A DNA stretch of 64,000 nucleotides. Source: Caulobacter sp. FWC2. GTDB lineage: Bacteria; Pseudomonadota; Alphaproteobacteria; Caulobacterales; Caulobacteraceae. This document shows positions 37,107 to 61,335 of this stretch, piece by piece. The notes under the pieces were generated by a model. The model made no database searches and had not been told where the DNA came from. It was given only the letters and a program-made list of their open reading frames with translations. The stretch is from positions 1,674,001 to 1,738,000 of the forward strand of contig NZ_PEBF01000001.1 in assembly GCF_002742625.1 (NCBI RefSeq). Direction: 5' to 3'. Both the position numbers and the translations under genes were made by a program. The stretch's first letter is position 1; each line of letters opens with the position of its first letter.

Positions 37107-38114
37107 TCAGCGCCGCTTGGCGAAAAGGCCCGACAGATAGGTGAAGGCCGTGTTTGCCGATGCGAGCGGCGAGTTGGGAAAAGGCGGTTCCTGTTCAACG
37201 AACAGATGCTGAATATCGAAACGCTGGATCAGTCCCTTCAGCGCCTCCCATGGAACGATCCCCGCGCCGACATCGGCGGGCGCCATTTCCATGCTGTTTG
37301 TGGAGACGGCGGCGACATCCTTCATGTGCATCATCGTCACGCGCCGGCCGACGCGGGTCAGCAGCTCGACGACATCCTGCCCGGCGGCGGCCACCCATCC
37401 CACGTCCATTTCGAACGACACCAGCGCCGGGTCGGTCCTCGCGAGCAGCAGATCATAGCCGGTGCCGCCGCCCGCCAGCGGCAGGAATTCGAAGGCATGG
37501 TTATGATAGGCAAGCCCAACGCCTGACTTCGCCAGGCGGGTCGCGCGATCGTTCAGCAGATCCGCCGCCCGCTTCCAGTCATCGGCGGTCAGCGTGCGGA
37601 CCAGCTTGTCGAGCGCGTCCATATCGTAACCGCCCGCCGGCGGATGAGAGAGCGCTTCGCGCACGCGTTCTGGGAAAGGCGCGATAGCGACGACCGCCCG
37701 GCTAGCCCCCAGCGCGCGGATATTGGCGGCCAAGGCGGGGATGTCGCCCTCCAGGTGCCATGCGTCCGGCGTCGCTTCGGGAACCACATGGATGGCCGGG
37801 CATCGCAGGCCTGCCTTCTGAATTGCGCGGCGCAATTCGGCCGGCTGGCGCCCGTAGGGGCCGGGCAGCTCCACTTCGCGATAGCCGATCTGCGCCACCT
37901 GGCGCAGCGTGCCCTCGAGATCGGTCTTCGCCGCGTCGCCCAGCGTATAAAGCTGAAGGCCGGGGGGCCAAGACGGGCTCGCGGCGCGCGCCATCGCCGC
38001 CCCGCCCGAGAGCCCGGGCAGGAGCGCCGCGCCGGTGAGGGCGCCGACCGAACCGATGATATGGCGGCGCGTATGGGCGACGATCGTTTGATCTTTATCC
38101 ATGGTCTTCCTCAT
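37107..38114 (-). CDS. Exported sugar isomerase/epimerase-like TIM-barrel protein
   Basis: A 335-residue xylose-isomerase-like TIM barrel carrying an N-terminal twin-arginine-like signal (HTRRHIIGSVGALTGAALLPG). The metal-site strands are visible: GLAYHNHAFEF, SFEMDVGWVAAAG, VTMMHMKD and LFVEQEPPF. Family members next to sugar 3-dehydrogenases act as 3-keto-glycoside epimerases, lyases or hydratases, and a periplasmic copy fits oxidation occurring outside the cytoplasm; the exact reaction is inferred. The start ATG 38114 overlaps the stop of the upstream serine hydrolase (ATGA), so the two are coupled and presumably act on the same substrate. Confidence 0.88.
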   Translation of the reverse strand: MRKTMDKDQTIVAHTRRHIIGSVGALTGAALLPGLSGGAAMARAASPSWPPGLQLYTLGDAAKTDLEGTLRQVAQIGYREVELPGPYGRQPAELRRAIQKAGLRCPAIHVVPEATPDAWHLEGDIPALAANIRALGASRAVVAIAPFPERVREALSHPPAGGYDMDALDKLVRTLTADDWKRAADLLNDRATRLAKSGVGLAYHNHAFEFLPLAGGGTGYDLLLARTDPALVSFEMDVGWVAAAGQDVVELLTRVGRRVTMMHMKDVAAVSTNSMEMAPADVGAGIVPWEALKGLIQRFDIQHLFVEQEPPFPNSPLASANTAFTYLSGLFAKRR

Positions 38115-39730
38115 GTCGCCATCCGGCCAGTCAGGACGGGCCTGATTTCACGGTGAGCGGCGGCCAGTTTGGTGATGCTGTTGCTGAAGGCGATACGGAT
38201 ATGGTCGCCCCCGATCGTACAGGTGACGACGTCAAAATGCGGCGTCTCATTGTAGCGCCATTGCATGTCGAGCACTTGGTTGCTCGACCATGCCGCCGCG
38301 GCGGCGACCCGGATCGGACCGGGCATGCGGTTGAGGGCGCCGATCAGCTCGGTAAATTCGGGCGGTGTTCCGGGCAGGTCGGTGAAGCCTTCTCGCCACC
38401 CGTCAAGGCCGGCCCGGACAGACGAGCGGCGCCCGGCGATTTCCAGCTCAAAAGCGCAGGATGCGTCATCGAAATGCAGCGTCACCGCGACTGCGCCCAT
38501 GGCATTGGGTTCGAGGACGAAGCGACGTCCCCCGATACGCGCGGCCTCGGGCGAGCGCGACGCGCCTTTGGGGACAGGCAGCGTCAGGCCGGCCAGCTTG
38601 TCACGCAGCCGGGCGGGCGCCGCCGGATCGGACGTGAGCGGGGCCTCGCGCAGACCGGGCAGCAGATTCTGCCAGACGAGGTTCAGCAGGCCCTGCATAT
38701 CGAGGGTGCAACTGGTGAGCGCGACGACGGTTCGCTTGTCCGGCAGCACGATGCAATATTGCCCGAACGCGCCGTCGCCTCGGAAGGCGTCGTGGCGGCA
38801 GCGCCAGAACTGGTAGCCATAGCCCTGATGCCAGTCGCTGGTCGCGGGCAGGGCGGAGGGATCGACGCCGGGCGGCGCGCCGGTCAAGGGTTGGCGTACC
38901 TGGGCGCGGGTCGCTTCAGCCACCCAGGATCGCGAGACGATTTGCCGTCCGCCATAGCGTCCCTGGTCGAGATAGAGCTGGCCGAACCGGCTCAAGGCCC
39001 CGGTGGTGAGCTTCAGGCCCCAGCCGCCCGTGTTGATCCCCATCGGGCAGGTCGCCCAGCGCGCGTCGGCGATCCCCAACGGATCGAAAAGCCGGGGACG
39101 AAGATAGGCGTCGAGCGGCTTGCCGACGACCTTCTGGACGGTCGCGGAGAGCATGTAGGACGCGCCGCTGTCGTACAGAAAGACGCTGCCCGGCGCATGG
39201 ACGATGGGCTGGGCGAGGAAGGCGCGCGCCCAGTCCTGCTCACGGGTGATGATGGGTGTCGAATCCGCGCCGTGCCCGACGGTCATCGTCAGCAAGTGCC
39301 GCAGGCGCAAGGCCGCCAGATTGGCGTCGACCGTCGCGGGGCGCTGTTCGGGAAAGAAGTCGATCACGCGATCATCGAGATGCAGGCGACCTTCATCGAT
39401 CGCGATGCCGACCGCCGTGCCGGTGACGCTCTTGCTGAGCGAATAGAGCAACTGAGGTACGTCGGCCCGGTAGGGCGCCCACCATCCGCCGGCCACCGTG
39501 TGTCCGTCGCGCGCGATCATGATGCTGTGCGGTTCGTGCGGTGAGGCCTCGAGCGCCGCGAGAAGGTCGAGGATCGCTCCGGAATCCACGCCAACCTTCT
39601 CAGGCGGTGCCGTGGGCAGGTCGCCCCAACCGGGCGCATGACGGGTTTGCGCGGCCGCCGCCGCTCGTCCGGTCGCCATGGCCGCGCCGACGCCCAGCCC
39701 GGCGAGGACGAATCGACGCGGCGGGTTCAT
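38111..39730 (-). CDS. Exported beta-lactamase-family serine hydrolase (esterase-like)
   Basis: A 539-residue protein with an RR-containing signal (NPPRRFVLAGLGVGAAMATG). The class C beta-lactamase/esterase fold is marked by LLYSLSKSVTGTA (Ser-x-x-Lys nucleophile) and a Tyr-x-Ser/Asn equivalent in FLYDSGASYML. A C-terminal beta domain of about 150 residues (RRFVLEPNAMGAVAVTLHFD) is typical of the family fused to lipocalin-like folds. In this context a deacylase or esterase acting on an acylated glycoside is more likely than antibiotic resistance. ATG 39730 starts the signal; a longer frame to 39835 is not credible. Divergent from the GMC dehydrogenase gene. Confidence 0.87.
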   Translation of the reverse strand: MNPPRRFVLAGLGVGAAMATGRAAAAAQTRHAPGWGDLPTAPPEKVGVDSGAILDLLAALEASPHEPHSIMIARDGHTVAGGWWAPYRADVPQLLYSLSKSVTGTAVGIAIDEGRLHLDDRVIDFFPEQRPATVDANLAALRLRHLLTMTVGHGADSTPIITREQDWARAFLAQPIVHAPGSVFLYDSGASYMLSATVQKVVGKPLDAYLRPRLFDPLGIADARWATCPMGINTGGWGLKLTTGALSRFGQLYLDQGRYGGRQIVSRSWVAEATRAQVRQPLTGAPPGVDPSALPATSDWHQGYGYQFWRCRHDAFRGDGAFGQYCIVLPDKRTVVALTSCTLDMQGLLNLVWQNLLPGLREAPLTSDPAAPARLRDKLAGLTLPVPKGASRSPEAARIGGRRFVLEPNAMGAVAVTLHFDDASCAFELEIAGRRSSVRAGLDGWREGFTDLPGTPPEFTELIGALNRMPGPIRVAAAAAWSSNQVLDMQWRYNETPHFDVVTCTIGGDHIRIAFSNSITKLAAAHREIRPVLTGRMAT

Positions 39731-40101: not shown

Positions 40102-41796
40102 ATGCCTCTGCCTGATGGCTACGTCCCTGAGGTCATCGTTGTCGGCTCGGGCGCTTCGGGCGGCATGGCGGCCTACGTGTTGGCCAAGGCGGGCGTCCGG
40201 ACCTTGTTGCTCGAAGCGGGGCGGAACTACGACCCGGCCGAGACGCCGATGTTCGATCGTTCGCGCGAGGCGCCGCTGGCCGGGACCGGCACCGACGACA
40301 AGCCCTTTGGATATTACGATGCGACGGTAAACGGCGGCTGGCAGGTGCCGGGCGAGCCCTACACGTCGGCCGAGGGGAGTCATTTCCGCTGGTGGCGCGC
40401 GCGGATGCTGGGCGGACGGACCAATCATTGGGGGCGGCATGTGCCGCGTTTTGGTCCCTATGACTTCAAGGGGCGGTCGCGCGACGGACATGGCGTCGAT
40501 TGGCCGATCGGCTATGAGGATGTCGCCCCGTTCTACGACCGGGTCGAAAAGCTCGTCGGGGTCTGCGGCAGTCAGATCGATCTGGAGAATCATCCGGCGT
40601 CGCCGCCGGGCGTGCTCCACGAAGCGCCGAAGCCGCGCGTTCCCGAACTCCTGGTCGAGGCGGCGTGCAACGCGCTCGATATCCCCTGCATCCCGACGCG
40701 GATGGCGATCCTGACGCATGATCTACCCGACGAGCACAGCCCGCGTCAGGCCTGTTTCAACGCCACCGATTGCACGCGGGGCTGCTCGATCGGCGCCGCG
40801 TTCCAGACGACGACATCGCTGCTGCCGATGGCGCTGGCGACCGGCAACTTGCGGATCCTGACCAACGCCATGGCCGCGCGAGTCCGGACCGACACGAACG
40901 GTCGCGCCACCGGTGTGGACTATTTCGAGGATGGGACGCCCAGGTTCGTGGCGGCCCGCGTCGTCGTCCTGGGGGCAAGCGCGTGCGAAACGGCGCGCAT
41001 CCTGCTCAATTCCATCGGCGATCACGCGCCCCAGGGCCTAGCCAACAGCAGCGGCCAGGTCGGGCGCAACCTGACCGATACGGTCGGCGCCGACGTCCAG
41101 GCGACGATCCCGGCTTTGTTCGACCGGCCGCGCTACAATGAAGACGGCATCTGGATGCCGCATCGCTACATCCCGTTCTGGCTCTACAAGGAGCAGGCGG
41201 CGGGCCAGCTGGATTTCAAGAGGGCCTACCATATCGAGTTCGCCGGCCGGTTCGTGGACCCGGTCCTGGCCCTGGGCGGCGGCGGGGACGGTTATGGCGC
41301 GCCGCTCAAGGCCGACATCCACCGCACCTTCGGCGCTAGGATAAACTTCGCGGTGCGCGGCGAGATGCTGGCCAACGAGAACAGCTATTGCGACCTGGAT
41401 CCGACCGTAAAGGACAGGTTCGGCCTGCCGGTTCTGCGCTTTCACTGGAAATGGGGCGATGAGGAACTGCGCATGGTCGATCATGCGTCCCATACCATCG
41501 CTCGGATCGTCGAGCGGATGGGCGCCAAGCTCGACGCGCCTTTGCCCAGCCCCGAGCAAATGATCAGCGAAGGCGGCAGTATCATCCATGAGCTGGGCAC
41601 AGCGCGCATGGGAAGCGACCCGCGGACTTCGGTCGTGAACCAATACGGCCAGACCTGGGACGTGCCCAATCTGTTTCTGGTGGATGGCGCGGTGTTCGCT
41701 TCCAACCCGCACAAGAATGCGACGCTGACCATGATGGCGCTGGCGATGCGTGGCATGGAGCACCTCGTCACGCAGTTGAGGAAGGGCGCATTGTGA
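40102..41796 (+). CDS. GMC-family FAD sugar dehydrogenase, probable glycoside 3-dehydrogenase large subunit
   Basis: A 564-residue flavoprotein. The FAD site is EVIVVGSGASGGMAAYVLA at residues 9-27; a second GMC block is RMLGGRTNHWGRHVPRF. Active-site His lies in HELGTARMG and the His-Lys-Asn motif in SNPHKNATLT (537-539). Cysteines 218, 224 and 228 form C-x5-C-x3-C, the pattern that binds a 3Fe-4S cluster in bacterial FAD glucose dehydrogenase. It should oxidise a sugar hydroxyl (C3 in characterised glucoside dehydrogenases, including the Caulobacter lactose system) and pass electrons to a cytochrome c. It has no signal of its own; the small subunit encoded next carries one. GGGAGG precedes ATG 40102. 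Confidence 0.92.
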   Translation: MPLPDGYVPEVIVVGSGASGGMAAYVLAKAGVRTLLLEAGRNYDPAETPMFDRSREAPLAGTGTDDKPFGYYDATVNGGWQVPGEPYTSAEGSHFRWWRARMLGGRTNHWGRHVPRFGPYDFKGRSRDGHGVDWPIGYEDVAPFYDRVEKLVGVCGSQIDLENHPASPPGVLHEAPKPRVPELLVEAACNALDIPCIPTRMAILTHDLPDEHSPRQACFNATDCTRGCSIGAAFQTTTSLLPMALATGNLRILTNAMAARVRTDTNGRATGVDYFEDGTPRFVAARVVVLGASACETARILLNSIGDHAPQGLANSSGQVGRNLTDTVGADVQATIPALFDRPRYNEDGIWMPHRYIPFWLYKEQAAGQLDFKRAYHIEFAGRFVDPVLALGGGGDGYGAPLKADIHRTFGARINFAVRGEMLANENSYCDLDPTVKDRFGLPVLRFHWKWGDEELRMVDHASHTIARIVERMGAKLDAPLPSPEQMISEGGSIIHELGTARMGSDPRTSVVNQYGQTWDVPNLFLVDGAVFASNPHKNATLTMMALAMRGMEHLVTQLRKGAL

Positions 41797-42485
41797 CCGA
41801 GCCGTTCCCCACGCTGACTCGCCGGCGGACGATCGCCTGGTTCACCGCGGCGCTGGCAAGCCCGATGGCCCTGCCAACGGGTCCGGCGCGCGCCGCGAGC
41901 ATCGGCTGGCCCGCTCTGATGCTGAAGCCGATAGCCGCCCCCGGCTACGGCGCGGATCCGAACATGAGCGAGAAGAAGGTGACTTGGCCGCTTTCGCTCA
42001 GCCCAGAGCAGCGGGCGCTCATCCGCATCTGCGCCGACATCGTTCTTCCTCCGCCTGCCGGACGGAAACCGCCGAGCGCCCTGGGGATCGACGCGTTCGT
42101 CGATGAGTGGGTCAGCGCGCCCTATGCGCGACAGGCGGCGGATCGCACGCTGATCCTGGCGGGGCTTGTCTGGATGGACGCCCAAGCAATGGAAAGATTT
42201 TCCAAGTCCTTCGCATGCGCCACCGACGCGCAGCGGCGCGTGATCTTCGACATGATCGCCTGGCGCGATCGCATCGCCCCCGGTTGCGAACAGGCGGCGG
42301 CGTTCTTCGCCAGCCTGCGCGCCATTGTCGTGCTTGGCTACTACACCCTACCCGAGGGCGAAGAGGAACTCGGCTTCGTGGGAAATACGCCATACGAGGG
42401 CGTCTATCCCGGCCCCGGCCCCGAGCCGCTGCGGCATCTCGAACAGCAGCTCGCCCGGCTCGGCCTGACGATGCCGAAGTTCTGA
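41793..42485 (+). CDS. Gluconate 2-dehydrogenase subunit 3-family protein, Tat-targeted small subunit
   Basis: A 230-residue protein with a twin-arginine signal (TRRRTIAWFTAALASPMALP, RR at residues 7-10). The family (gluconate 2-dehydrogenase subunit 3) forms the gamma subunit of FAD sugar dehydrogenases and carries the folded large subunit through the Tat pathway. The body shows the expected helical pattern (LSPEQRALIRICADIVLPPP, RRVIFDMIAW, GYYTLPEGEEELGF). The start is GTG 41793, overlapping the GMC stop by four bases, so the two subunits are coupled. Confidence 0.92.
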   Translation: MTEPFPTLTRRRTIAWFTAALASPMALPTGPARAASIGWPALMLKPIAAPGYGADPNMSEKKVTWPLSLSPEQRALIRICADIVLPPPAGRKPPSALGIDAFVDEWVSAPYARQAADRTLILAGLVWMDAQAMERFSKSFACATDAQRRVIFDMIAWRDRIAPGCEQAAAFFASLRAIVVLGYYTLPEGEEELGFVGNTPYEGVYPGPGPEPLRHLEQQLARLGLTMPKF

Positions 42486-42553: not shown

Positions 42554-43732
42554 ATGACCATCTCTGCTCGCTGGACGATGCTTCCAGCGTTGGGCGTCGC
42601 CGCCTTGCTGGCGACCGCCGGTCCTAGCTGGAGTCAGTCCCCGACCCGACCTGGCGCATCAGCTGAAAAGGTCGGCGGGCTGATCGACCGAATGCCGCTG
42701 ACCGAGGTCGCTCCGAGCATTCGCGCGACCGGGGCGACGCCCTTCCGTATCCGCTACACCTCGGTATCGGCGTGGAACGGCGCGCCCATTACCGTGTCCG
42801 CGAGCGCTTTCCTGCCGGCGGGGCCGCCGCCGCAAGGGGGATGGACCGTGGTCGCGATCGGGCACGGCACGACCGGGATACTGCCCGAATGCGCGCCGTC
42901 CCTGTCGCCGGACCTAAGCGGAATCGCGCCCTTGGTGGCGCAATTCCTCGCTCAGGGTTTCGCCGTGACGATGGCCGACTATGAAGGTCTGGGCGAGCCT
43001 GGCGTCCATGCCTACCTGAATGCCGAGGCCGCCGGGCGGAACATCATCGACTCGGTGCGGGCGTTGCGACAATTGCGGCCCGGCGCGGTTTCCAATCGCT
43101 GGCTGGCGGTTGGCGGATCACAGGGCGGCGGCGCGGTGTGGGGCGCCAACGAAGTGGCCGCGGCCTATGCGCCCGACCTCAACCTGCTGGGCGTCTTCGC
43201 CTTCGCGCCCGCCGCGCGGTTCACCGACTATGTTGATATCGCAGCCGTCGGCAAGCTGAACCCGGACCAGACCGCCGCCTATGTCTGGATGCTGATGTCG
43301 CTCAGCCGCGGACGTCCGGATTTCGATCTTGGCCCGTATCGCCGCGGATCGGTCGCGCGCAACTGGACAAAGCTATCCTATTGCACCGGACCGCACGCGG
43401 GCGAGCGGCTCGAGGCGTTGAAGCAGATCACGCCCGACGAACTGAAGCCGGCCTCGTTGGCCGCACGGCGACAGATGAAGGCGATCATGGCGGGTCTGGC
43501 GCTGCCGAAGCGCCGCGCGGCGGCGCCGATGTTGGTTCTCTATGGCGGCCGCGACAGTTTCCTCGATCCCGCCTGGACCGCGCAGGCGGTGCGACAGGCC
43601 TGCCACCTGGGCTCGAAGGTGCAGGGAATCCTGCAGCCGGAAAAAGAACACGGCAATCTCGACCTGACCCCATCCGTCGAATGGCTCGCCCACAGGCTGG
43701 CGGGCGAGCCGGTGTCGAACAGCTGCGGCTGA
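42554..43732 (+). CDS. Exported alpha/beta hydrolase (secretory-lipase-like esterase)
   Basis: A 392-residue protein with signal peptide (WTMLPALGVAALLATAGPSW). The fold is a secretory lipase or tannase-like alpha/beta hydrolase: GWTVVAIGHGTTGILPECAP, VTMADYEGLGEPG, nucleophile elbow LAVGGSQGGGAVW, aspartate in LYGGRDSFLD and histidine in PEKEHGNLDL. A paired cysteine, ECAPS with KLSYCTGP, may form a disulfide. The likely role is to cleave acyl esters from a glycoside before rhamnosidase action, inferred from position between the dehydrogenase and GH78 genes. Frames upstream of ATG 42554 overlap the Tat-subunit gene and are shadows. Confidence 0.85.
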   Translation: MTISARWTMLPALGVAALLATAGPSWSQSPTRPGASAEKVGGLIDRMPLTEVAPSIRATGATPFRIRYTSVSAWNGAPITVSASAFLPAGPPPQGGWTVVAIGHGTTGILPECAPSLSPDLSGIAPLVAQFLAQGFAVTMADYEGLGEPGVHAYLNAEAAGRNIIDSVRALRQLRPGAVSNRWLAVGGSQGGGAVWGANEVAAAYAPDLNLLGVFAFAPAARFTDYVDIAAVGKLNPDQTAAYVWMLMSLSRGRPDFDLGPYRRGSVARNWTKLSYCTGPHAGERLEALKQITPDELKPASLAARRQMKAIMAGLALPKRRAAAPMLVLYGGRDSFLDPAWTAQAVRQACHLGSKVQGILQPEKEHGNLDLTPSVEWLAHRLAGEPVSNSCG

Positions 43733-47080: not shown

Positions 47081-47098
47081 AATGAGATCGATCTCATT
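47081..47098. promoter_or_regulatory. 18-bp perfect palindrome, probable LacI-type operator, copy 1
   Basis: AATGAGATCGATCTCATT is a perfect even palindrome with a central CG, as in LacI-family operators. It lies 13 bases before the AraC-type start codon. The 16-bp core recurs exactly at 52821-52836. Confidence 0.8.
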
Positions 47099-47111
47099 CA
47101 GGGAGGGGATG

Positions 47112-48035
47112 ATGCTGGACTGGGGGACAGGTGCGTCTGCACGACCGTTTTGCAGCGTGCGGTTATCCTCGGGCGGTTTAGCCGGCCATGATGCGTGGCA
47201 TCATCATCCGGAATATGAGCTCGGGTGGATTGTCAGGGGACAAGGGACGCGGTTCGTCGGCGACAGCGTCGAGCCCTATCGTGCCAGAGACCTCGTCCTG
47301 CTCGGCCCCAATTTCCCGCATTTCTACCACGATGACACCTCGCCGCTGGCCCCCTGGGCTCGGCCGGAATTGACCACGCTGCAATTTCGGCCCGAAGTCG
47401 TCGATACGCACTTTCTCGGATTGCCCGAAGCCCGCGACATCGCCGCGCTGCTTCGCATCGCGTCGCAAAGGGGGCTGCAGGTTCAGGGCGAAACCGCCGC
47501 GAGGGTCCAGGAGACCATCTCGGGGCTTTCCGCCAAGGTCGGCATGGCCCGGCTGATCGGCCTGCTCGAGATCCTCGAGACCCTGGCGCAGGGTGGCGAT
47601 GATCTCCGCCCGCTGGCCAGCTCCGGCTATTCCACCGGCAAAGGCAGCGCGACCACCACCCGTCGGCGGATCGAACAGATCGACCGCCATGTTCGCGAGA
47701 ACCTCGGGCAGGAAATCAAGCAAGTGGATGTGGCCGGCCTCGTCGGGCTGACCCCGCATGCCTTCAGCCGCTTTTTCCGGAAGGCGACCGGGCTGACCTT
47801 CGTTGGCTTCGTCAATCGATTACGCATCAACGAAGCGTGTCATCGGCTGCTGGAGACGGATGATGGCATCACCGAGATCGCATTTGGTTGTGGCTACTGG
47901 AGCATCGCCAATTTCAACCGCCAGTTTCTAAATCTGAAGGGGGTGAACCCCTCTCGATTCCGGGAGAAACGGCTGCGGACCATCGAGGCGACAACCCTCA
48001 CACAAATCGCGGAGCCGTACCTGGAGATCGCGTGA
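47112..48035 (+). CDS. AraC-family transcriptional regulator
   Basis: A 307-residue regulator with an N-terminal cupin-type ligand domain (HDAWHHHPEYELGWIVRGQG, then DSVEPYRARDLVLLGPNFPH) and two C-terminal helix-turn-helix motifs (IKQVDVAGLVGLTPHAFSRF and EIAFGCGYWSIANFNRQF). The ligand is probably a sugar from the glycoside locus. Start ATG 47112 has GGAGG five bases upstream. An upstream ATG at 47082 lies inside the palindromic operator and lacks a ribosome site. It sits between the rhamnosidase gene and the TonB receptor gene, both likely targets. Confidence 0.92.
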   Translation: MLDWGTGASARPFCSVRLSSGGLAGHDAWHHHPEYELGWIVRGQGTRFVGDSVEPYRARDLVLLGPNFPHFYHDDTSPLAPWARPELTTLQFRPEVVDTHFLGLPEARDIAALLRIASQRGLQVQGETAARVQETISGLSAKVGMARLIGLLEILETLAQGGDDLRPLASSGYSTGKGSATTTRRRIEQIDRHVRENLGQEIKQVDVAGLVGLTPHAFSRFFRKATGLTFVGFVNRLRINEACHRLLETDDGITEIAFGCGYWSIANFNRQFLNLKGVNPSRFREKRLRTIEATTLTQIAEPYLEIA

Positions 48036-48145: not shown

Positions 48146-50440
48146 ATGAAGAAAACTCGGGGGAATGCAGGGTTGTTGGCGGCGCTGATGGCCGGATGCG
48201 CGGGGGCGGCCTTTGTCGCGCCGGCCTGGGCGCAGACAGTGAAGACCCAGATACCTGCATCGCAGGCGGACGACAGCAAGTCGTCCCCTGAATCCTCACT
48301 GGTCTCGGACATCGTCGTCACCGGCTATCGCGTCGATGCCACGACCAGTGCGACGGGCCTAGTTACCGCCATCGTCGATACGCCGATGTCGATCTCCGCC
48401 GTCACCGACAAGTTCTTGCGCGACACTGGATCGACCCAGTTGATGGATGCGATCGGCTCGCTGACGGGCGTCACAGGCCAGAGCAACAGCGGCGAAACGC
48501 CGACCAATTTCAGTGTGCGCGGTTATGCGGTCGCGCCGCAGATCGACGGGTTCAGCACCTTGTCGATCACCGGCGGGCTCGGCTCGTCCGTCGCGGTCGA
48601 GCGGATCGAGGTCTTGAAGGGGCCATCGGCCGTCTTCAATGGCAACGTGCCGCCCGGCGGCACGATCAACATCATCTACAAGCGCCCCTCGTTCAAATCG
48701 GAAAGCTATGTTGAGCTGACTGGCGGCAGCTGGAACTACAAGAGCGCGGAGCTTTTCTCGACTGGCGCGCTCGTGCCCGACAAGGTCGCCTATCTGATCG
48801 ACGGTTATGTCAAGGACAGCGACGGCTGGGTGGACTGGACCAAGCATGATGAGCGGACGATCGTCGGCGCGCTCCGCGTTGAACCGATCAAATCGCTCCG
48901 CTTCGATGTGGGCGTCCGCAAGACCTCTCATGAGATGCAGATCTCGACCCTGCCGGTGAGCCACGAAGGCTATATCGGTTCCGGCTCGCCCTGGGGGGTG
49001 CCCCTCGACGCCTGGGTCGCGCAGAACTACGGCCCGCTTGAGCCGCCACAGACGATCACCGTGCCGCAATATGTGCCGAACGGGCGGCGCGGCAACGTGC
49101 TCGGGCCGCAGAATTTCAACAAGTCGGACCTGACGGTCTTCGAGGGGGGAGTTCATTTCTCGCCCAACGACGCCATCGAACTGCGCGATGTCTTCATCAG
49201 CCAGAAGTACAACTGGGACGGCCTCACCATCTTGCAAAGCGGCGCGAAGGTCATCGGTGCGGATAGAAAGTCCAGCGTCATTTCCGGGTTGCTCGCTGGC
49301 GACATCGCTGGCAGCGGCTGGGAGAACAAGCTTGAAGCCGCACTGCATTTCGATACCGGACCGATCAACCACGAAACACTGATCGGCTATCAGTTGGCGC
49401 ACAGCCAGTCGGATCACTATCGCGTCTGGGTTGGTGGGCCGGCGCTCAATTCAAGCGGTCAGCCTTGGGACTATTTCGTCGACGGACCGCGCTTGCTGGG
49501 GAAGGAATTCGCTGCGCTGACGGCGGCCAATCCCAACCCCGTAATCAATCTTTCGAAGACTTCGAAGGTAAGGACGCACGCCTTCTATGTCGCCGAACAG
49601 GCATCAGCCTTTGATGGACGCGTCCGGGTCGTCGTGGGCGGGCGGTACAGCAAGACCTCGACCGACAAACTGGGCGTCCACGCCTTCACGCCGCAGGCCG
49701 CGATCCTGATCAAGCCGTTCGACCCGACCTCGCGCCTCGCCGAGACGTCGTTCTTCCTGAACTATTCCAAATCGTTCACCCCCTCAGGCCTGGTCGAGCC
49801 GAATACGGGAGATGTTGTGCCGCCGGCGCGCGGCATAGGCAAAGAGATCGGCGTCAAAACTTCCTGGTTCGGTGGGCGGCTGGCCAGCACCGTCTCCTAT
49901 TTCCAGGATGAATTGCACGACATCGCGACCCCGGACTATTCGCAGCAGGGGCAAACCGGCATGGCCGTCTTCCATCTCGGAGGGGCCGGTCGGGTCGAAG
50001 GCGTGGAAGGGGATATTGTCTGGACGCCTAGCAGCGCGTTGCAGATCAGCGCCAACTACACCTATCTGCCCACCGCGAAGTACACCAGTTATCCCAACGT
50101 GCCACAGCAGGAGGGGCTTCGCTTCCCCTCGACCCCGAAGCGCGCTTTCAACCTATCGGCGCGCTATGCCTTGCCGGAAGGGGCGCTCAAAGGAACCTAT
50201 GTCGGCGGCTGGCTCCACACCCAGTCGTCCACGCGCGGTGTGCTCAATTCGGACTGGCAGTACAACGTCGTCATTCCCACCCAGACCGACGTCGATGCGT
50301 TTCTCGGCTACCAGTTCGGCAATTGCGATCTCCGCCTCAACGTGAAGAACCTGCTCAATCGCGACGGCTATGTCGCAGGCAACGCCTTCCAGCCGGCGTC
50401 GCCCCGATCGGCCTTCTTGACCCTGCGGATCGCGCGCTGA
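48146..50440 (+). CDS. TonB-dependent receptor of the glycoside locus
   Basis: A 764-residue outer-membrane receptor. Signal peptide LLAALMAGCAGAAFVAPAWA; TonB box-like SDIVVTGYRV; plug domain VDTPMSISAVTDKFLRDTGS, then VERIEVLKGPSAVFNGNVPP; barrel ending SPRSAFLTLRIAR. Sequence style is that of siderophore-type receptors, but location among rhamnosidase, dehydrogenase and esterase genes argues for import of an aryl or rhamnosyl glycoside. Such receptors replace porins for sugars in Caulobacter. No Fur-like box is evident upstream. It is about 110 bases downstream of the araC-type gene in the same direction. Confidence 0.93.
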   Translation: MKKTRGNAGLLAALMAGCAGAAFVAPAWAQTVKTQIPASQADDSKSSPESSLVSDIVVTGYRVDATTSATGLVTAIVDTPMSISAVTDKFLRDTGSTQLMDAIGSLTGVTGQSNSGETPTNFSVRGYAVAPQIDGFSTLSITGGLGSSVAVERIEVLKGPSAVFNGNVPPGGTINIIYKRPSFKSESYVELTGGSWNYKSAELFSTGALVPDKVAYLIDGYVKDSDGWVDWTKHDERTIVGALRVEPIKSLRFDVGVRKTSHEMQISTLPVSHEGYIGSGSPWGVPLDAWVAQNYGPLEPPQTITVPQYVPNGRRGNVLGPQNFNKSDLTVFEGGVHFSPNDAIELRDVFISQKYNWDGLTILQSGAKVIGADRKSSVISGLLAGDIAGSGWENKLEAALHFDTGPINHETLIGYQLAHSQSDHYRVWVGGPALNSSGQPWDYFVDGPRLLGKEFAALTAANPNPVINLSKTSKVRTHAFYVAEQASAFDGRVRVVVGGRYSKTSTDKLGVHAFTPQAAILIKPFDPTSRLAETSFFLNYSKSFTPSGLVEPNTGDVVPPARGIGKEIGVKTSWFGGRLASTVSYFQDELHDIATPDYSQQGQTGMAVFHLGGAGRVEGVEGDIVWTPSSALQISANYTYLPTAKYTSYPNVPQQEGLRFPSTPKRAFNLSARYALPEGALKGTYVGGWLHTQSSTRGVLNSDWQYNVVIPTQTDVDAFLGYQFGNCDLRLNVKNLLNRDGYVAGNAFQPASPRSAFLTLRIAR

Positions 50441-50549: not shown

Positions 50550-51545
50550 ATGCGCCTGTTACCGCGCGATCCACCAAACGTCCTGGCACGGAGCATCGCC
50601 GCCGCCCGCCGATCAGCATTTGCCTTACTGGGGGCGTGTGCGCTGCTCACGTCTCCCGCGATCGGAGCACCGGCCAACGCCTTGCAGTCCTTGCGCGTCG
50701 ATACGCCCGCCGCGTTGCGCCACGAGAGCTACCGATTGTGGGACGGGCGTGCGCCAGGCTCGACGGGGGATACGGCGGACGACGTCCCGAGCCTGACGAT
50801 CTACCGACCCGCCGCGCAGCGCGGCACCAGCCCCGCCGTCGTGATCGCCCCTGGCGGAGGGTATGTGATGCTGGCCTCTGGTCTGGAAGGCAGCGATCCT
50901 GCGGCGTGGTTCGCGGCGCGAGGCGTAACCGCTTTTGTCCTGACCTACCGAACCGGCAAAGCGGCGCGGTTGCCGACCGTTCTTGAGGACGGTGCGCGCA
51001 GCATCCGTTTCGTCAGGACCCATGCCAAAGACTTCGGGATTGACCCGTCACGGATCGCCATGATGGGCTTCTCGGCTGGCGGACACCTGGCGGCGAGCAC
51101 CGCGGTCTACGCGACGGCCGGCGACGCGCGATCCGCCGACGAGGTCGAGCGGGTCAGCAGCCGCCCCGACTACCTGATCCTCGGATATCCCTGGCTGGAA
51201 GGGACCATCATCGCCAAGGATGGCACATCCCAATATTGCCTATTCGCGCTGGAAAAGCAGGTCCCCTGTCTTCCAGAAGACTATACCCGGTTCGTCCCAA
51301 CCCGGAGCGTGACAGGAAAGGAACCGCCTACCTTCATATACCATACCACGACGGATACTCTTGTTTCTGTCGCGGGCGCCGTGCGTCTGTACATGGCGCT
51401 TCAAGAAAAGGGCGTACCGGTGGAGATGCATGATTTCGCACAGGGCGAGCATGGCACCGGGCTGGGTGGGTCAGACCCGTTGCTATCAATTTGGCCGCTT
51501 CTGCTAGAAAACTGGCTCCGCGCCCAAGGCTTCTTTCGGCCATAG
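50550..51545 (+). CDS. Exported alpha/beta-hydrolase carbohydrate-esterase-like protein
   Basis: A 331-residue protein with signal peptide (SAFALLGACALLTSPAIGAP). The fold is the BD-FAE/acetyl-esterase group: VVIAPGGGYVMLASGLEG (oxyanion HGGG variant), the nucleophile elbow IAMMGFSAGGHLAAS, aspartate in YHTTTDTLVSV and histidine in QGEHGTGLGG. It contains two cysteines near SQYCLFALEKQVPCLPED. The family deacetylates polysaccharides or removes feruloyl groups. AAGGAG lies just before ATG 50550; a longer frame to 50502 lacks this site. It follows the TonB receptor gene by about 110 bases. Confidence 0.88.
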   Translation: MRLLPRDPPNVLARSIAAARRSAFALLGACALLTSPAIGAPANALQSLRVDTPAALRHESYRLWDGRAPGSTGDTADDVPSLTIYRPAAQRGTSPAVVIAPGGGYVMLASGLEGSDPAAWFAARGVTAFVLTYRTGKAARLPTVLEDGARSIRFVRTHAKDFGIDPSRIAMMGFSAGGHLAASTAVYATAGDARSADEVERVSSRPDYLILGYPWLEGTIIAKDGTSQYCLFALEKQVPCLPEDYTRFVPTRSVTGKEPPTFIYHTTTDTLVSVAGAVRLYMALQEKGVPVEMHDFAQGEHGTGLGGSDPLLSIWPLLLENWLRAQGFFRP

Positions 51546-51761: not shown

Positions 51762-52769
51762 ATGACCACTGTCCGCGACGTCGCGATCGCCGCGGGCGTT
51801 TCGCGGGCGACCGCCGCCCGCGTCATCGCCAATCCTGAAATGGTGGCGGAGGCAACGCGGCTGCGGGTTCTCAAGGTGGTCGAAGAGCTCGGCTATATCC
51901 GCAACTCCGTCGCGGCCAGCCTGCGCACGACGCGGACGGGCCGCATCATCGTGACCGTGCCCGATATCGCCAATCCGTTCTTCTCACACGTCATCCGCGG
52001 GGTTGAGGAAGCAGCGCAAAAGGCGGGCTATGCCGTCCTCTTGGGCGACACGCGCAACGAGCGCGAGCGTGAGGAGCAGTACGCGGACATGCTCAACCGC
52101 AAGGAGGCGGACGGCTTCATCTTCCTCGGCCATCGCCTGCCCGCGACGCTGGCGAAGGTCCTGGCGCGCCAAGGCGGCCGTGCGCCGATCGTCAACGGCT
52201 GCGAGTTCACGCCTTCACTCGGCGTTTCGAGCGCCCACATCGACAACGCTAAAGCCAGTTACGAGGTCATGCAGGCGCTCTACGACAGAGGTCATCGCGA
52301 TATCGCGCTGATTGTCGGGCCGGCCGACAGCCCGCTGACGCGCGATCGGCTGACCGGCGCGCGAGCGGCGGCCGAGGACTACGGTATCGTCGCCAGGCTG
52401 ATGGTCGAGGCGGGCGATTTCTCGATCGAATCAGGTCGCGCCGCCGCCCTGTTGCTGTTCGCGCGCGCACCGCGGCCGACTGCGATCTTCTGCTTCAGCG
52501 ACGAGATGGCGATCGGCGCGCTCGCGGCGGCGCGTTCTGCCGGAATACCCTGTCCAGACGCCGTCTCCGTGGTGGGCTTCGACGACATTCAGATGACCCG
52601 TTATGTCGATCCGCCCTTGGCCACCGTGCGTCAGCCGATGGCGGAGATCGGCCGGAAAACCGTCGAACTTCTGCTGGGCATCCTGACCGGCCAGCAAATC
52701 GATCCCATCTACGCGACATTGCCGCACCAGATCATCGTGCGGGAGAGCCTTGGCCGCGGCCCAGAGTAG
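51762..52769 (+). CDS. LacI-family transcriptional regulator
   Basis: A 335-residue repressor. The DNA-binding headpiece is TTVRDVAIAAGVSRATAARV (residues 2-21) with hinge helix NSVAASLRTTRTG, followed by the periplasmic-binding-protein-like sensor domain (IIVTVPDIANPFFSHVIRGV, IVNGCEFTPSLGVSSAH, AIFCFSDEMAIGALAAAR, VSVVGFDDIQMTRYVDPPL). The effector is probably a sugar. It is the best candidate to bind the palindrome ATGAGATCGATCTCAT located 50 bases after its stop and again before the araC-type gene. Start ATG 51762. Confidence 0.93.
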   Translation: MTTVRDVAIAAGVSRATAARVIANPEMVAEATRLRVLKVVEELGYIRNSVAASLRTTRTGRIIVTVPDIANPFFSHVIRGVEEAAQKAGYAVLLGDTRNEREREEQYADMLNRKEADGFIFLGHRLPATLAKVLARQGGRAPIVNGCEFTPSLGVSSAHIDNAKASYEVMQALYDRGHRDIALIVGPADSPLTRDRLTGARAAAEDYGIVARLMVEAGDFSIESGRAAALLLFARAPRPTAIFCFSDEMAIGALAAARSAGIPCPDAVSVVGFDDIQMTRYVDPPLATVRQPMAEIGRKTVELLLGILTGQQIDPIYATLPHQIIVRESLGRGPE

Positions 52770-52819
52770 ACCCTCTCGATTTCATGATCGCTGGCCGACG
52801 AGCGCCTTTTTCGGATTGT

Positions 52820-52837
52820 CATGAGATCGATCTCATG
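52820..52837. promoter_or_regulatory. 18-bp perfect palindrome, probable LacI-type operator, copy 2
   Basis: CATGAGATCGATCTCATG shares the identical 16-bp core with the site at 47082-47097. It lies 133 bases upstream of the permease start. TTGTCA at 52816-52821 overlaps its left edge and could be a -35 element that repressor binding would block. Confidence 0.8.
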
Positions 52838-52970: not shown

Positions 52971-54245
52971 ATGGTCAAGTTGCGACTGTCGATCATGATG
53001 TTCGCGCAGTATTTCGCCTGGGGCGTCTGGTTCGTGCCGCTCGGCGCCTACATGAGCAAGGGCCTGCATTTCGATACGATCATCGGCGCGGCCTATGGCA
53101 TGGCCGGTGTTGCGACGATTCTCTCAACCCTGTTTGTCGGCATGATCGCGGATCGCTTCGTCGCGGCGGAAAAGCTCCTCGGCATATTGTCGATCTTGGC
53201 CGGCGCGGCCTTGCTTTGGGTGTCGACGATCCGCACGTCGCCGTCGCTCTTCCTGTTCGGCTGCCTCCTGCATTTCATCTTCTATGCCTCGACCATTCCG
53301 CTCGCCACGGCGATCGCCTTCAACGCCATGACCGATGTCGGCAAGGAGTTTCCGGGCATCCGCGTGTGGGGCACGGTGGGCTGGATCGTCGCCGGCCTGC
53401 TGGTCGGCATCGTGGCCGGCGCCGCGCAGACGGCGATGCCGATGTGGATCGCCGCTGGCATCTATATTGCGCTCGGGCTCTACGCCTTCATCCTGCCCAA
53501 CACGCCGCCGCGCGCAACCGGCCGGGTTGTCAGCCTTCCCGCGCTCTTTGGGCTGGACGTCATCTTGCGCCACCGTGAACCCGCGCTTTGGATTTTTATC
53601 GCCTGCACTCTGACGCTGATGATCCCGCGCAGCTTCTACGACACCTATGCCAACGCCTTCTTTGCCGACAAGGATCTGCACTTGACGCTGCTCGGCATTC
53701 GGTTTGAGGCGACGGGCATCCAGACGGCAGGTCAGATCTTCGAGTCGCTGATCCTGGTCAGCCTTCCGTTTCTACTCGGACGATTGGGCATCAAGCATGT
53801 GCTGATGATCGGCATGGGCGCTTGGGGTGTTCGCTTTCTGCTCTTTGCTTTTGGCTATCAGGGCGGAAGCGTGATTATGCCAATGGTGTTGCTGGGCATC
53901 ATTATCCACGGCGTCTGCTACGATTTCCTGATCGTGTCCGGCCAGATCTATGTCGATCGCAAGTTCGATGCGGAGGCCCGGTCGCGAGCCCAGTCCTTCT
54001 TCAATCTCATCACCCAAGGTATCGGCGTCGTCGTCGGATCCAACATTGCCGGCGTCGTCTACGCGATGAATGTTGAAGTGGGTGGCGGCCACGACTGGAA
54101 GACGATCTGGATCGTACCGGCGGTGATCGCCTGTGTCGCGATGCTCCTGTTCGCGTTCACCTTCCGCGAGACGCCGGGCGCCCAGCGGGCAGATCAAGCG
54201 GACGCGCGGCTTCCAGTTCGCGAACCGGGCAATACGCGCGGATGA
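52971..54245 (+). CDS. MFS permease, nucleoside:H+ symporter-like family
   Basis: A 424-residue transporter with 12 membrane segments. The opening VKLRLSIMMFAQYFAWGVWF, then FVGMIADRFVAAEKLLG and FPGIRVWGTVGWIVAGLLVG match the NupG-related family that, in sugar-oxidation loci, imports sugars or 3-keto sugars rather than nucleosides. It is the first gene of a four-gene operon with Gfo/Idh/MocA, TIM-barrel and cytochrome c genes. ATG 52971 has GGGGGAGG eight bases upstream; GTG 52968 is possible. The operator at 52820 lies in its promoter region. Confidence 0.91.
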   Translation: MVKLRLSIMMFAQYFAWGVWFVPLGAYMSKGLHFDTIIGAAYGMAGVATILSTLFVGMIADRFVAAEKLLGILSILAGAALLWVSTIRTSPSLFLFGCLLHFIFYASTIPLATAIAFNAMTDVGKEFPGIRVWGTVGWIVAGLLVGIVAGAAQTAMPMWIAAGIYIALGLYAFILPNTPPRATGRVVSLPALFGLDVILRHREPALWIFIACTLTLMIPRSFYDTYANAFFADKDLHLTLLGIRFEATGIQTAGQIFESLILVSLPFLLGRLGIKHVLMIGMGAWGVRFLLFAFGYQGGSVIMPMVLLGIIIHGVCYDFLIVSGQIYVDRKFDAEARSRAQSFFNLITQGIGVVVGSNIAGVVYAMNVEVGGGHDWKTIWIVPAVIACVAMLLFAFTFRETPGAQRADQADARLPVREPGNTRG

Positions 54246-55384
54246 CGCGGGAAGCTCTCCGGCTAGGCCTCATCGGCGGTGGCCCCGGCAGTTTCATTGG
54301 TCCGGTGCACCGCATGGCGGCGTGCCTCGACGCGCGATTTATCCTCGCGGCGGGCGCTTTCAGTCGTACGCGGGAAAAGTCGCTCGCCCAGGCGGCCCTC
54401 TGGGGCGTTTCCGCCGATCGCGCCTATGACAGCATCGAAGCTTTGATCGCGGGCGAACAACACCGAGACGACGCCGTCCAGGCCATCGCCATCGCGACGC
54501 CCAACGACAGCCACTATGCGATTGCCGCGGCGGCGATTCAGGCGGGCTTGCCGGTCATCTGCGACAAGCCGATGACCGCGACGCTGGCCGAGGCCGAGGC
54601 GTTGGCCGCTCTTGTGGCGCGGACCGGATGCCCCTTTGCGCTCACCTATGCCTATACGGGCTACGCGATGATCCGAGAGGCGCGCGCGCGGATCGCGTCC
54701 GGCGCGATCGGACGGGTCCGCAAGGTCATGGTCGATTACCCGCAGGGCTGGCTGTCCGACCCGATCGAGGCTGACAATGTCCAGGCCGCGTGGCGGACCG
54801 ATCCCAATCGCGCGGGCTGCGGCGGGGCGATCGGCGATATCGGCGTCCATGCTTTCCAGCTCGCGGAATATGTCAGCGGATTGAGGGTGGTGGAGTTGGT
54901 GGCGGACCTGTCCCGCGTCGTCGCCGGGCGGCGACTGGACGATGATTGCAATATCCTGCTGCGCTTCGAGGGCGGCGTGCCCGGCGTGCTGACCGCGTCG
55001 CAGATCGCGACGGGCGAGCGCAATGGGCTCAAGCTGCGCATCCATGGCGAGCAGGGCAGTCTCGAATGGCGGCATGACGCGCCGGCCGACCTGATTTTCC
55101 GATGGCCCGACGCGCGAACCGAAATCATTCACGCCGGCAGTCCCGGCCTGCACCCGACTGCGCAGCGCGCGATTCGCCTGCCGAGTGGGCATCCCGAAGG
55201 CTTCATTGAGGCCTTCGCAACGCTCTATGCCGGTTTCGCCGACGCCATCGAAGGCGCCCAGGATTCGCTGAACGACCTATTGCCCGGCATCGACGACGGC
55301 CTGCGATCGATGCGGTTGATCGATCGCGCCGTGCGCTCGAACGACGCCCGCGCGTGGCTGGCCTTTCCGGGGAACGGACAATGA
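54242..55384 (+). CDS. Gfo/Idh/MocA-family NAD(P)-dependent sugar oxidoreductase
   Basis: A 380-residue cytoplasmic dehydrogenase. Rossmann motif LRLGLIGGGPGSFIGPVHR (residues 5-23), the ICDKPMTATLAEAEAL catalytic-lysine block (EKP variant DKP) near residue 107, and CGGAIGDIGVHAFQLAEYVS with the active-site DxxxH near 200. Members in related loci reduce 3-keto sugars or oxidise sugars at C3. It overlaps the permease and the TIM-barrel gene by four bases each, so the three are coupled. With imported 3-keto sugar from periplasmic oxidation, a reductase role is plausible but inferred. Confidence 0.93.
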   Translation: MTREALRLGLIGGGPGSFIGPVHRMAACLDARFILAAGAFSRTREKSLAQAALWGVSADRAYDSIEALIAGEQHRDDAVQAIAIATPNDSHYAIAAAAIQAGLPVICDKPMTATLAEAEALAALVARTGCPFALTYAYTGYAMIREARARIASGAIGRVRKVMVDYPQGWLSDPIEADNVQAAWRTDPNRAGCGGAIGDIGVHAFQLAEYVSGLRVVELVADLSRVVAGRRLDDDCNILLRFEGGVPGVLTASQIATGERNGLKLRIHGEQGSLEWRHDAPADLIFRWPDARTEIIHAGSPGLHPTAQRAIRLPSGHPEGFIEAFATLYAGFADAIEGAQDSLNDLLPGIDDGLRSMRLIDRAVRSNDARAWLAFPGNGQ

Positions 55385-56487
55385 AGACGATCAAGGGCCC
55401 CGGGATCTTCCTGGCGCAGTTCCTATCCGACCAGCCGCCGTTCGATACGCTGGATCATCTGGCCGAATGGGCGGCCGGACTTGGCTATGTCGCCCTGCAG
55501 ATTCCCGCCACGCCGCACCTGATCGACCTCGAAACGGCGGCGGAAAGCCAGGCCTATTGCGACGACCTTCGCGCCCGGCTCGACAAGCACGGTCTCGTGG
55601 TGAGCGAGCTTTCGACCCATCTGCAGGGCCAACTGGTCGCGGTGCATCCCGCCTATGATCGGCTGTTCGACGGATTCTGCGCCGAGGCCGTGCGGGGCAA
55701 TCCGCAGGAACGACAAGCCTGGGCGGTCGAGCAGGTCAAGCTCGGCGCCCGCGCCAGCCAGCGGCTCGGCCTCGACGCGCACGCCACCTTCTCCGGCGCC
55801 TTGGCATGGCCCTATATGTATCCGTGGCCGCAGCGCCCATCTGGACTGATCGACGAGGCCTTCACGGAGCTTGCTCGGCGCTGGCGCCCGATCCTCGACA
55901 CCTTCGAGGACTGCGGCGTCGATTGCGCCTTTGAGATCCATCCAGGCGAGGATTTGCACGACGGCGCGACTTTCGAGCGGTTCCTCGATGGCGTCGATCA
56001 GCACCCCCGCGCGCGCATCCTCTACGACCCGAGCCATCTGCTGTTGCAACAGCTCGATTATCTGGCTTTTCTCGACATCTATCACACGCGGATTAGCTGC
56101 TTCCACGTCAAGGATGCGGAGTTCCGACCCAATGGTCGGAGCGGTCTCTATGGGGGCTATCAGAATTGGGTCGATCGCCCAGGGCGGTTCCGCTCGCCGG
56201 GCGACGGGCAGATCGAGTTCGGCGCGATCTTCTCGAAAATGGCCGCTAACGACTATTCGGGTTGGGCCGTGCTCGAATGGGAGTGCGCGCTTAAGCATCC
56301 CGAGGACGGCGCGCGCGAGGGAGCGCCGTTCATCCGTGACCACATTATCCGCGTCACGCCCCGCGCCTTCGACGATTTCACTTCAAGCGAGACTGATCGC
56401 AACGCCGATCGCGCGCTGCTCGGGCTTCCTCCCGAGCTTGGCCCGCAGGGCCCCACCAATCCCACTTCACAACCCGGAGCGCTTTGA
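55381..56487 (+). CDS. Cytoplasmic sugar epimerase/isomerase-like TIM barrel (YcjR-like)
   Basis: A 368-residue xylose-isomerase-like protein without signal. Metal ligands appear in DCAFEIHPGEDLHDG, RILYDPSHLLLQQLDYL, ISCFHVKDAEFRPNGRSG and WAVLEWECALKHPEDGA. This pattern is shared with the E. coli YcjR type, a 3-keto-sugar 4-epimerase, so a 3-keto-glycoside epimerase or lyase is likely. Start ATG 55381 overlaps the upstream stop (ATGA); a frame starting at 55354 is internal to the previous gene. It overlaps the cytochrome gene by four bases. Confidence 0.92.
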   Translation: MKTIKGPGIFLAQFLSDQPPFDTLDHLAEWAAGLGYVALQIPATPHLIDLETAAESQAYCDDLRARLDKHGLVVSELSTHLQGQLVAVHPAYDRLFDGFCAEAVRGNPQERQAWAVEQVKLGARASQRLGLDAHATFSGALAWPYMYPWPQRPSGLIDEAFTELARRWRPILDTFEDCGVDCAFEIHPGEDLHDGATFERFLDGVDQHPRARILYDPSHLLLQQLDYLAFLDIYHTRISCFHVKDAEFRPNGRSGLYGGYQNWVDRPGRFRSPGDGQIEFGAIFSKMAANDYSGWAVLEWECALKHPEDGAREGAPFIRDHIIRVTPRAFDDFTSSETDRNADRALLGLPPELGPQGPTNPTSQPGAL

Positions 56488-56873
56488 TGAGATGGATATA
56501 TGGCGCGCTAGCAGCTTTGGCCCCGGTCGCCGTGTTCAGCGCCAATGCAATGCCCGCCGCCCCGCCGGACAATGCCGCCGGCGCGCGGACCTTCAGCACC
56601 TGCCAAGCCTGCCACACGATCGAAAAAGGTGGACGCAACGGCATCGGTCCCAATCTGGGGGGCGTGATCGGTCGCCGCGCCGGCTCGGTCGCCGGCTTCA
56701 ACTATTCGGCGGCGATGAAGAATTCCGGCATCATATGGGATGCGAAGGTGCTCGACGAATTTCTCGCGGCACCGACCAAAAAAGTTCCGGGGACGAAGAT
56801 GCCGATCAGCGTCCTCGATCCGGCCAAGCGGGCCGCATTGATCGCGTATCTGTCGTCGAGGCCCGCCCAATAG
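56484..56873 (+). CDS. Periplasmic class I monoheme cytochrome c
   Basis: A 129-residue protein with signal peptide (IYGALAALAPVAVFSANAMP) and one heme site CQACH (residues 36-40), axial methionine in VPGTKMPISV near 100, and the helix PAKRAALIAYLSSR. It is the natural electron acceptor for the GMC/Tat-subunit sugar dehydrogenase encoded 15 kb upstream: in glucoside 3-dehydrogenases and the Caulobacter lactose system, large, small and cytochrome subunits act together. Its ATG overlaps the TIM-barrel stop (TGATG), making it the last gene of the permease operon. Confidence 0.94.
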   Translation: MMRWIYGALAALAPVAVFSANAMPAAPPDNAAGARTFSTCQACHTIEKGGRNGIGPNLGGVIGRRAGSVAGFNYSAAMKNSGIIWDAKVLDEFLAAPTKKVPGTKMPISVLDPAKRAALIAYLSSRPAQ

Positions 56874-61306: not shown

Positions 61307-61335
61307 GGCGACAGACCACCTACTACTCTGAGCGC

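Follow-up and report, generated by a model that had tools for sequence, protein, structure and literature searches.

We analysed a 64,000-nucleotide stretch of the Caulobacter sp. FWC2 genome (the window; positions 1,674,001–1,738,000 of contig 1 in a genome of 5.51 Mb), which holds a locus that combines a GH78 α-l-rhamnosidase with a GMC dehydrogenase and two TIM-barrel enzymes of the 3-keto-sugar type, TIM1 and TIM2 (Table 1). Gene families were assigned with Pfam and NCBIfam profiles, gene starts were revised from reading frames and ribosome-site context, and export signals were judged by eye from inspection of the sequence. The families named in an earlier sequence-only reading all have profile matches, with some starts corrected; the likely starts of the GMC, LIP, GH78, est, TIM2 and cytochrome genes are those in Table 1, and the AraC gene is revised to begin 27 bp inside the listed open reading frame (ORF). 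That reading placed the locus at 37107–56873. The genes are there, but the locus extends further and is the cargo of a larger element inserted at a tRNA gene. Motifs of the twin-arginine (Tat) type are seen in TIM1, GH78, the dehydrogenase small subunit and the β-lactamase-family protein, and Sec-type N-termini in LIP, est and the cytochrome; no signal was seen by eye in GMC, Gfo or TIM2. TIM1 and TIM2 are the only AP_endonuc_2 matches in the genome. No β-glucosidase is present among the genes scanned at the locus, and the PF06439 3-keto-disaccharide hydrolase was not found among the window genes scanned (35737–61345). A partial Gluconate_2-dh3 match lies elsewhere in the genome (2442883–2443107 of contig 1; profile positions 53–135, open frame of 109 residues).

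Table 1. Features of the FWC2 locus and of the element that carries it (window coordinates)
Feature	Position	Strand	Basis
tRNA-integrated element, 43.7 kb, at tRNA-Ser(GCT)	24713–68393 (24713–64000 in window)		Flanking repeat, integrase, relaxase
TIM1, exported β-eliminase-like TIM barrel (AtOGE-like), AP_endonuc_2	37107–38114	-	Pfam, structure relatives, site residues
Exported β-lactamase-family serine hydrolase/esterase; 4-bp overlap with TIM1 start	38111–39730	-	Pfam/NCBIfam
GMC dehydrogenase large subunit, clade B	40102–41796	+	Pfam, family comparison
Gluconate_2-dh3-type small subunit, Tat-like signal	41793–42485	+	Pfam, eye
Exported LIP-family (secretory lipase) hydrolase	42554–43732	+	Pfam
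GH78 α-l-rhamnosidase, Tat-like signal	43774–46998	+	Five Pfam rhamnosidase-type domains
Putative operator palindrome ATGAGATCGATCTCAT, just before probable AraC start	47082–47097		Pattern search
AraC-family regulator, revised start	47109–48035	+	Pfam/NCBIfam
TonB-dependent receptor, siderophore-like subfamily	48146–50440	+	Pfam/NCBIfam
est, exported BD-FAE/acetylesterase-like hydrolase	50550–51545	+	Pfam/NCBIfam
LacI-family repressor	51762–52769	+	Pfam/NCBIfam
Putative operator palindrome ATGAGATCGATCTCAT, second copy, before MFS operon	52821–52836		Pattern search
MFS permease (nucleoside/oligosaccharide:H+ symporter type; Nuc_H_symport)	52971–54245	+	Pfam/NCBIfam
Gfo/Idh/MocA reductase, proposed 3-keto-hexose reductase	54242–55384	+	Pfam, locus comparison
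TIM2, predicted 2-hydroxy-3-keto-glucal hydratase orthologue, AP_endonuc_2	55381–56487	+	Pfam, match to solved hydratase
Single-haem cytochrome c, proposed electron acceptor	56487–56873	+	Pfam/NCBIfam
Ti-type TraA relaxase of element	58448–61345	-	Pfam/NCBIfam

TIM2 matches the solved Agrobacterium tumefaciens hydratase 8RO4 with an E value of 2.5e-173 over 349 residues, and by its sequence it is assigned as the orthologue of the A. tumefaciens 2-hydroxy-3-keto-glucal hydratase (AtHYD). Its gene overlaps that of Gfo, and Gfo adjoins TIM2 in 79 of 80 hydratase loci (80 kept of at least 592 in a genome scan; neighbours were sought with tblastn, E 1e-6, up to 10 kb away or as far as the contig reached). 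The same loci contain LacI (47), TIM1-like (34), GMC (28), MFS (23) and cytochrome (13) genes. Two Agrobacterium loci (L023 and L035) share the gene order LacI, hydratase, Gfo, eliminase, GMC, cytochrome, in agreement with the A. tumefaciens operon as described (PMC10628242). A BD-FAE esterase follows the hydratase in L117, the locus of the closest fetched GMC (61%). On a Pseudoalteromonas plasmid, a 57% GMC relative is accompanied by Gfo, TIM2, MFS, DUF1080 and small-subunit genes. The Sphingobium TomMM7A plasmid carries a consecutive nucleoside permease, oxidoreductase, AP endonuclease (TIM2-like, 74%), hypothetical gene and cytochrome c, a run that much resembles the right half of the FWC2 locus.

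The best solved relative of TIM1 by sequence is 8BVK, the A. tumefaciens O-glycoside β-eliminase AtOGE (E 4.5e-18). A structure model built from 25 sequences (pLDDT 87.9) matches Parabacteroides proteins of unstated function at ranks 1–3, the 3-keto-β-glucopyranoside-1,2-lyases 8TCD, 8TCT and 8TCR at ranks 4–7, and AtOGE at ranks 8–9. The Bacteroidota lyases AL1 and BT1 (8TCD and 8TCT) share the fold of the model at 20–22% identity. YcjR and YcjS were considered as the closest relatives and rejected; solved-structure searches rank AtHYD and AtOGE first. The AtOGE site is reported to consist of Glu39, His66, His132, His134, Glu161, Asp163, His189 and Glu233, comprising the metal ligands and the catalytic His134 (PMC10628242). 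With the Agrobacterium L035 protein (530 bits to 8BVK) as the positional reference, TIM1 retains all eight, with its His201 in the place of His134. In a 44-row alignment of sequences of 230–345 residues, six of these positions are invariant, Glu39 is kept in 43 rows and Glu161 in 40. The matches support, but do not prove, that TIM1 is an exported relative of AtOGE. Among 48 TIM1-like ORFs, 31 fit a loose twin-arginine pattern (including that of L016, whose start is plainly wrong); those of L042, L046 and L072 begin at the core and look cytoplasmic by pattern and by eye. The AtOGE-type genes of Agrobacterium (L023:12361–13215 and L035:12360–13214) start with a Sec-like signal. The characterised AtOGE may itself be periplasmic, judging from such N-termini; the words periplasm, transport and membrane do not occur in the A. 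tumefaciens pathway paper (PMC10628242). The signals on TIM1-like proteins and their absence from TIM2 and Gfo suggest that elimination is periplasmic and is followed by import, then by cytoplasmic hydration and reduction.

As TIM2 and TIM1 match the solved hydratase and eliminase, and Gfo, LacI, cytochrome c and GMC all have counterparts in the A. tumefaciens operon, the locus is expected to work like the published oxidation–elimination–hydration–reduction pathway. We regard it as probable that the locus is an oxidative deglycosylation module, gained by horizontal transfer, that is of the same working type as the A. tumefaciens GlycDH–OGE–HYD–Gfo pathway and is extended by a rhamnosidase and esterases. 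The sequence-only reading had proposed that a 3-keto glycoside is formed by oxidation and then undergoes β-elimination, and this is still the best reading. In the proposed scheme, the TonB receptor would admit a rhamnose-bearing glycoside, the esterases would strip acyl groups and GH78 would strip the terminal rhamnose. The GMC/small-subunit complex would oxidise the exposed hexose at C3 and pass electrons to cytochrome c. Exported TIM1 would free the aglycone by β-elimination, leaving 2-hydroxy-3-keto-glucal, which the MFS permease would take in. TIM2 would hydrate the imported product and Gfo would reduce it to the hexose.

The GMC enzyme retains the active-site histidine, as do all 76 GMC sequences compared (window GMC included), and has its Tat partner. 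It belongs to a different group, 28–38% identical to the characterised type. Of 75 relatives of at least 480 residues from the fetched loci, 43 are 28–38% identical to the window GMC, one is 44–46%, 30 are 50–62% and one is about 23% identical. A search of 390 genomes of the family found its own group, clade B, in 36 genomes besides FWC2 (46–61% identity), whereas none of 74 other genomes of the genus (G200–G273) gave a clade B match. The clade occurs in Caulobacteraceae and in Pseudoalteromonas, and relatives at 69–97% exist in a large protein database. The two GMC groups lie side by side in L068, L117, L118 and L124 (about 33% and 51–61% to the window GMC), which suggests that they have different substrates. 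At E 1e-60 the window GMC is the sole GMC of the FWC2 genome, so it must perform the oxidation if the pathway runs. A scan of viral contigs found none that encodes a GMC relative.

The perfect palindrome ATGAGATCGATCTCAT has two sites in the window and no other there with up to three mismatches, against 0.17 expected; two sites were reached in 2 of 100 shuffles. With up to two mismatches the same two sites are the only ones in the 5.5-Mb genome, and the reversed control gave none. Since the sites lie solely before AraC and before the MFS–Gfo–TIM2–cytochrome genes, they link the two halves of the locus, and we infer that LacI would act through one operator type both on the side of AraC and at the MFS operon. 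Related LacI genes carry TGNNATCGATNNCA palindromes. These occur in 27 of the 47 hydratase loci with LacI (in 24 no more than 450 bp from where LacI starts) and in 2 of the 33 without it; 18 control loci (347 kb) and 1.18 Mb of shuffled sequence had none. The other 20 loci with LacI, including L032 and L038 of Caulobacter and L023 and L035 of Agrobacterium, have no such site, and the strict palindrome form gave three stray matches in relatives. The looser family pattern was derived from the relatives and counted partly in the same loci, so these counts are descriptive; the ATGAGATCGATCTCAT count in the FWC2 genome is independent of it. The shared operator bears on the idea that two unrelated cargo blocks, a GMC–GH78 block and a 3-keto-sugar salvage block, came together on one element by chance. 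In favour of this idea, several relatives (L032, L124 and L182) have the eliminase inside the MFS–Gfo–hydratase operon, whereas TIM1 is encoded on the opposite strand, some 15 kb from that operon. However, one operator type marks both sides, and with no other AP_endonuc_2 gene and no other GMC in the genome each block would lack its partners unless the other were present. We consider such a chance assembly very unlikely.

Several observations weigh against the module as proposed. The metal site of TIM1 is partly generic to its superfamily, so the retained residues support the eliminase assignment and fall short of proof. The window GMC shares only about 32–33% identity with the enzymes of Agrobacterium and Caulobacter vibrioides; by sequence its group is distinct from the characterised glycoside 3-dehydrogenases and has no substrate assignment. 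No operator precedes the GMC or the β-lactamase-family gene, which makes AraC control of the GMC–GH78 operon a guess. The TonB receptor is nearest to the siderophore model TIGR01783 (170.5 bits, cut-off 223.5), so the receptor itself is no pointer to a sugar, and we did not use it as evidence for one. GH78 is absent from all 28 clade B GMC loci (11–20 kb stretches, for 28 of the 36 genomes) and from all 80 hydratase loci, as are LIP and the β-lactamase-family gene from the latter. Among 14 loci that hold GH78 relatives at 50–54%, 6 contain pectin-type genes.

The sequence-only reading had proposed a comparative search for conserved co-occurrence of GH78 with the GMC pair, and the counts above do not bear conservation out. 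GMC and GH78 lie within 20 kb at E 1e-60 in 3 of the 390 genomes, FWC2 and two of the same genus, G211 and G212. The latter two have a different GH78 (32%) near a LacI–MFS–TIM–Gfo–TIM2–cytochrome–GMC set with a different GMC; in G211 a PF06439 gene lies between. A class-wide sample of 385 genomes holds the hydratase in 33, GH78 in 6 and both in 2, close together only in FWC2. Of 82 genomes from another family, 51 hold the hydratase and 8 hold GH78, but none has the two within 20 kb by listed positions. The idea of a rhamnosidase with an oxidative operon thus recurs, while this GH78–GMC pairing was found once and is not conserved. A plain LacABC-like system acting on disaccharides or simple β-glucosides (lactose, cellobiose, salicin), in which GH78 and the esterases ride along as passengers, would fit the single pairing and the wide spread of the core genes without GH78, and Caulobacter LacABC is reported to serve lactose and salicin (PMC9007349). 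Yet GMC, small subunit, LIP and GH78 lie on one strand with gaps of 0–68 bp, which suggests one transcript; PF06439, present in L117, L120, L124 and L182, is missing among the genes scanned here; and G211 and G212 likewise pair a GH78 with such an operon. On balance we think the passenger explanation unlikely.

The GH78 catalytic domain matches PF17389 with 393 bits. One glutamate, Glu895, presumably corresponds to a known site residue. Another, Glu656, aligns with Glu636, the catalytic acid of SaRha78A (PMC4690510). Relatives at 57–78% exist in a large protein database, the closest at 61–78%. We regard a rhamnosylated, perhaps acylated glycoside as a plausible substrate. The flavonoid or saponin proposed from the sequence alone is less secure, given the pectin-type genes beside the 50–54% relatives. 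Acylation had been proposed too; three esterase-like genes are present, but they are its sole basis, and we did not take hydrolases as proof of an acylated substrate. Rhamnose is carried on O3 or O2 of glucose in verbascoside and naringin, and on O6 in rutin and hesperidin. Its removal would be chemically needed first if it is on O3 or O2, not if on O6. A system for pectin (rhamnogalacturonan) or arabinogalactan oligosaccharides, in which GH78 takes rhamnose off fragments and the oxidative enzymes handle the remainder, would account for those neighbours and for est, whose best NCBIfam match is a sub-threshold one to the pectin acetylesterase PaeX (165.1, with a cut-off of 550). Seven pectin-type query proteins were compared with 21 other GH78 loci, and nine of these (three being the loci from which the queries came) match a pectate lyase, GH28-type, rhamnogalacturonan-lyase-like or oligogalacturonate lyase gene. 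The other GH78 of FWC2 itself (L145, contig 1 1464001–1484000) is part of a pectin-type cluster that includes pectate-lyase-like and GH28-like genes. In contrast, none of the seven queries matches the window, and the closest GH78 relatives (61–78%) differ from those in the examined pectin loci; a pectin system seems to us decidedly unlikely.

The proposed deglycosylation module lies within a tRNA-integrated element. The last 14 bases of tRNA-Ser(GCT), 24713–24726, are repeated at 68380–68393, 43,667 bp apart. The element runs 4.4 kb past the window end, with the right repeat and the integrase just beyond it; the integrase is of the tyrosine type, and its minus-strand gene, within the right end, has its start at 68192. 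Of three congeners examined, two have an empty site: in G212 and G260 the tRNA is followed immediately by what lies from 68380 onward in FWC2, with the repeat as the overlap. In the third, G228 (L220, C11:70401–90400), the site is occupied by different DNA, which includes an integrase-like ORF and a second attachment-like copy, so that the site looks like an integration hotspot. No type IV secretion genes were found among the genes scanned, though only part of the ORFs was profiled. Third-position GC is 0.72–0.82 in the locus and 0.90–0.94 in many genes left of the element. In a hydratase tree whose bootstrap was not fully settled, the window sequence falls outside Caulobacter and clusters with Sphingomonas and Sphingobium (100/96), and those of G211 and G212 cluster with Caulobacter vibrioides. 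Among the named GH78 relatives are proteins of Novosphingobium rosa (68%) and Sphingomonas (63–65%); of 87 plasmid records that match the TraA region, 29 come from Sphingobium. The tree, the GH78 relatives and the TraA plasmids together suggest acquisition from a sphingomonad. A near-DNA plasmid search with the locus gave seven records, each covering at most 6% of the query, and four Sphingobium or Novosphingobium plasmid loci have neither GH78 nor the operator.

Tentatively, the element could have carried from sphingomonad to Caulobacter a self-contained periplasmic deglycosylation without a β-glucosidase: GH78 would unlock glucose rhamnosylated at O2 or O3, the GMC of an uncharacterised group and the exported eliminase would free the aglycone, and only the 3-keto glycal would enter the cell. 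If so, clade B GMC enzymes would represent a new sugar-dehydrogenase specificity. The proposal gives testable predictions for a dehydrogenase group of no known substrate, suggests the cell location of oxidative deglycosylation (exported eliminase, cytoplasmic hydratase), and supplies a candidate operator for the LacI regulator of a pathway packaged on a mobile element.

The element also carries other genes. Its left end (25122–29127) holds an iron-uptake-like PepSY-TM protein and TonB receptor, followed inside the element by a LysR regulator and an efflux-like operon of outer-membrane factor, HlyD-type adaptor and MFS (29645–34818). RelE-like and helix-turn-helix genes at 57000–57684 are a probable toxin–antitoxin pair, and a ROS/MucR-type regulator lies at 62093–62797. 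To the right of the element, a UDP-glucose-dehydrogenase-like and epimerase-like pair, of exopolysaccharide type by sequence, is repeated about 28 kb apart (L147 about 9512–11818, L148 about 17418–19727).

The sequence-only reading knew of no described pathway with this gene set. We found no paper with the exact set in the open-licence literature (preprints excluded), but the view that the whole pathway is undescribed was rejected. A dehydrogenase–eliminase–hydratase–reductase set is described for A. tumefaciens by Bitter et al. (Nat Commun 2023, PMC10628242), and TIM2 matches its hydratase. Identities to the A. tumefaciens GlycDH/AtOGE/AtHYD/Gfo operon are 67–68% for the hydratase, 47–48% for Gfo, 45% for cytochrome c, 38–39% for LacI, 32–33% for GMC and 24–25% for the eliminase. 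The FWC2 locus differs from it in its GMC group, in the added GH78, esterases, TonB receptor, AraC and MFS, and in being part of a tRNA-integrated element. Caulobacter LacABC, a periplasmic lactose 3-dehydrogenase route with a DUF1080 hydrolase, serves lactose and salicin (Price et al., PLoS Genet 2022, PMC9007349); both loci have a GMC with partner subunits and a cytochrome, in FWC2 too presumably for periplasmic glycoside oxidation. Unlike the LacABC locus, FWC2 has no PF06439/DUF1080 gene among those scanned. The window GMC is 32% identical to the GMC of the C. vibrioides locus, which is probably LacA. The levoglucosan pathway LgdA–B1–B2–C of Bacillus smithii runs oxidation, elimination, hydration and reduction with four enzymes (Sci Rep 2020, PMC7676230); its first enzyme is an NAD-dependent LGDH in place of the FWC2 GMC, and the passages that describe it mention no rhamnosidase. 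In Sphingobium RC1, sugars are removed from saponins by GH3, GH39, GH78 and GH106 hydrolases, among them SpGH78-1 (mBio 2023, PMC10653915); the words oxidoreductase and isomerase do not occur in that text. RC1 and FWC2 share a GH78 rhamnosidase, which RC1 uses on plant glycosides. Compared with these systems, the core of the FWC2 locus is of a known kind; new are its distinct GMC group, the added GH78, three esterase-like hydrolases and TonB receptor, the paired operators and the mobile-element setting.

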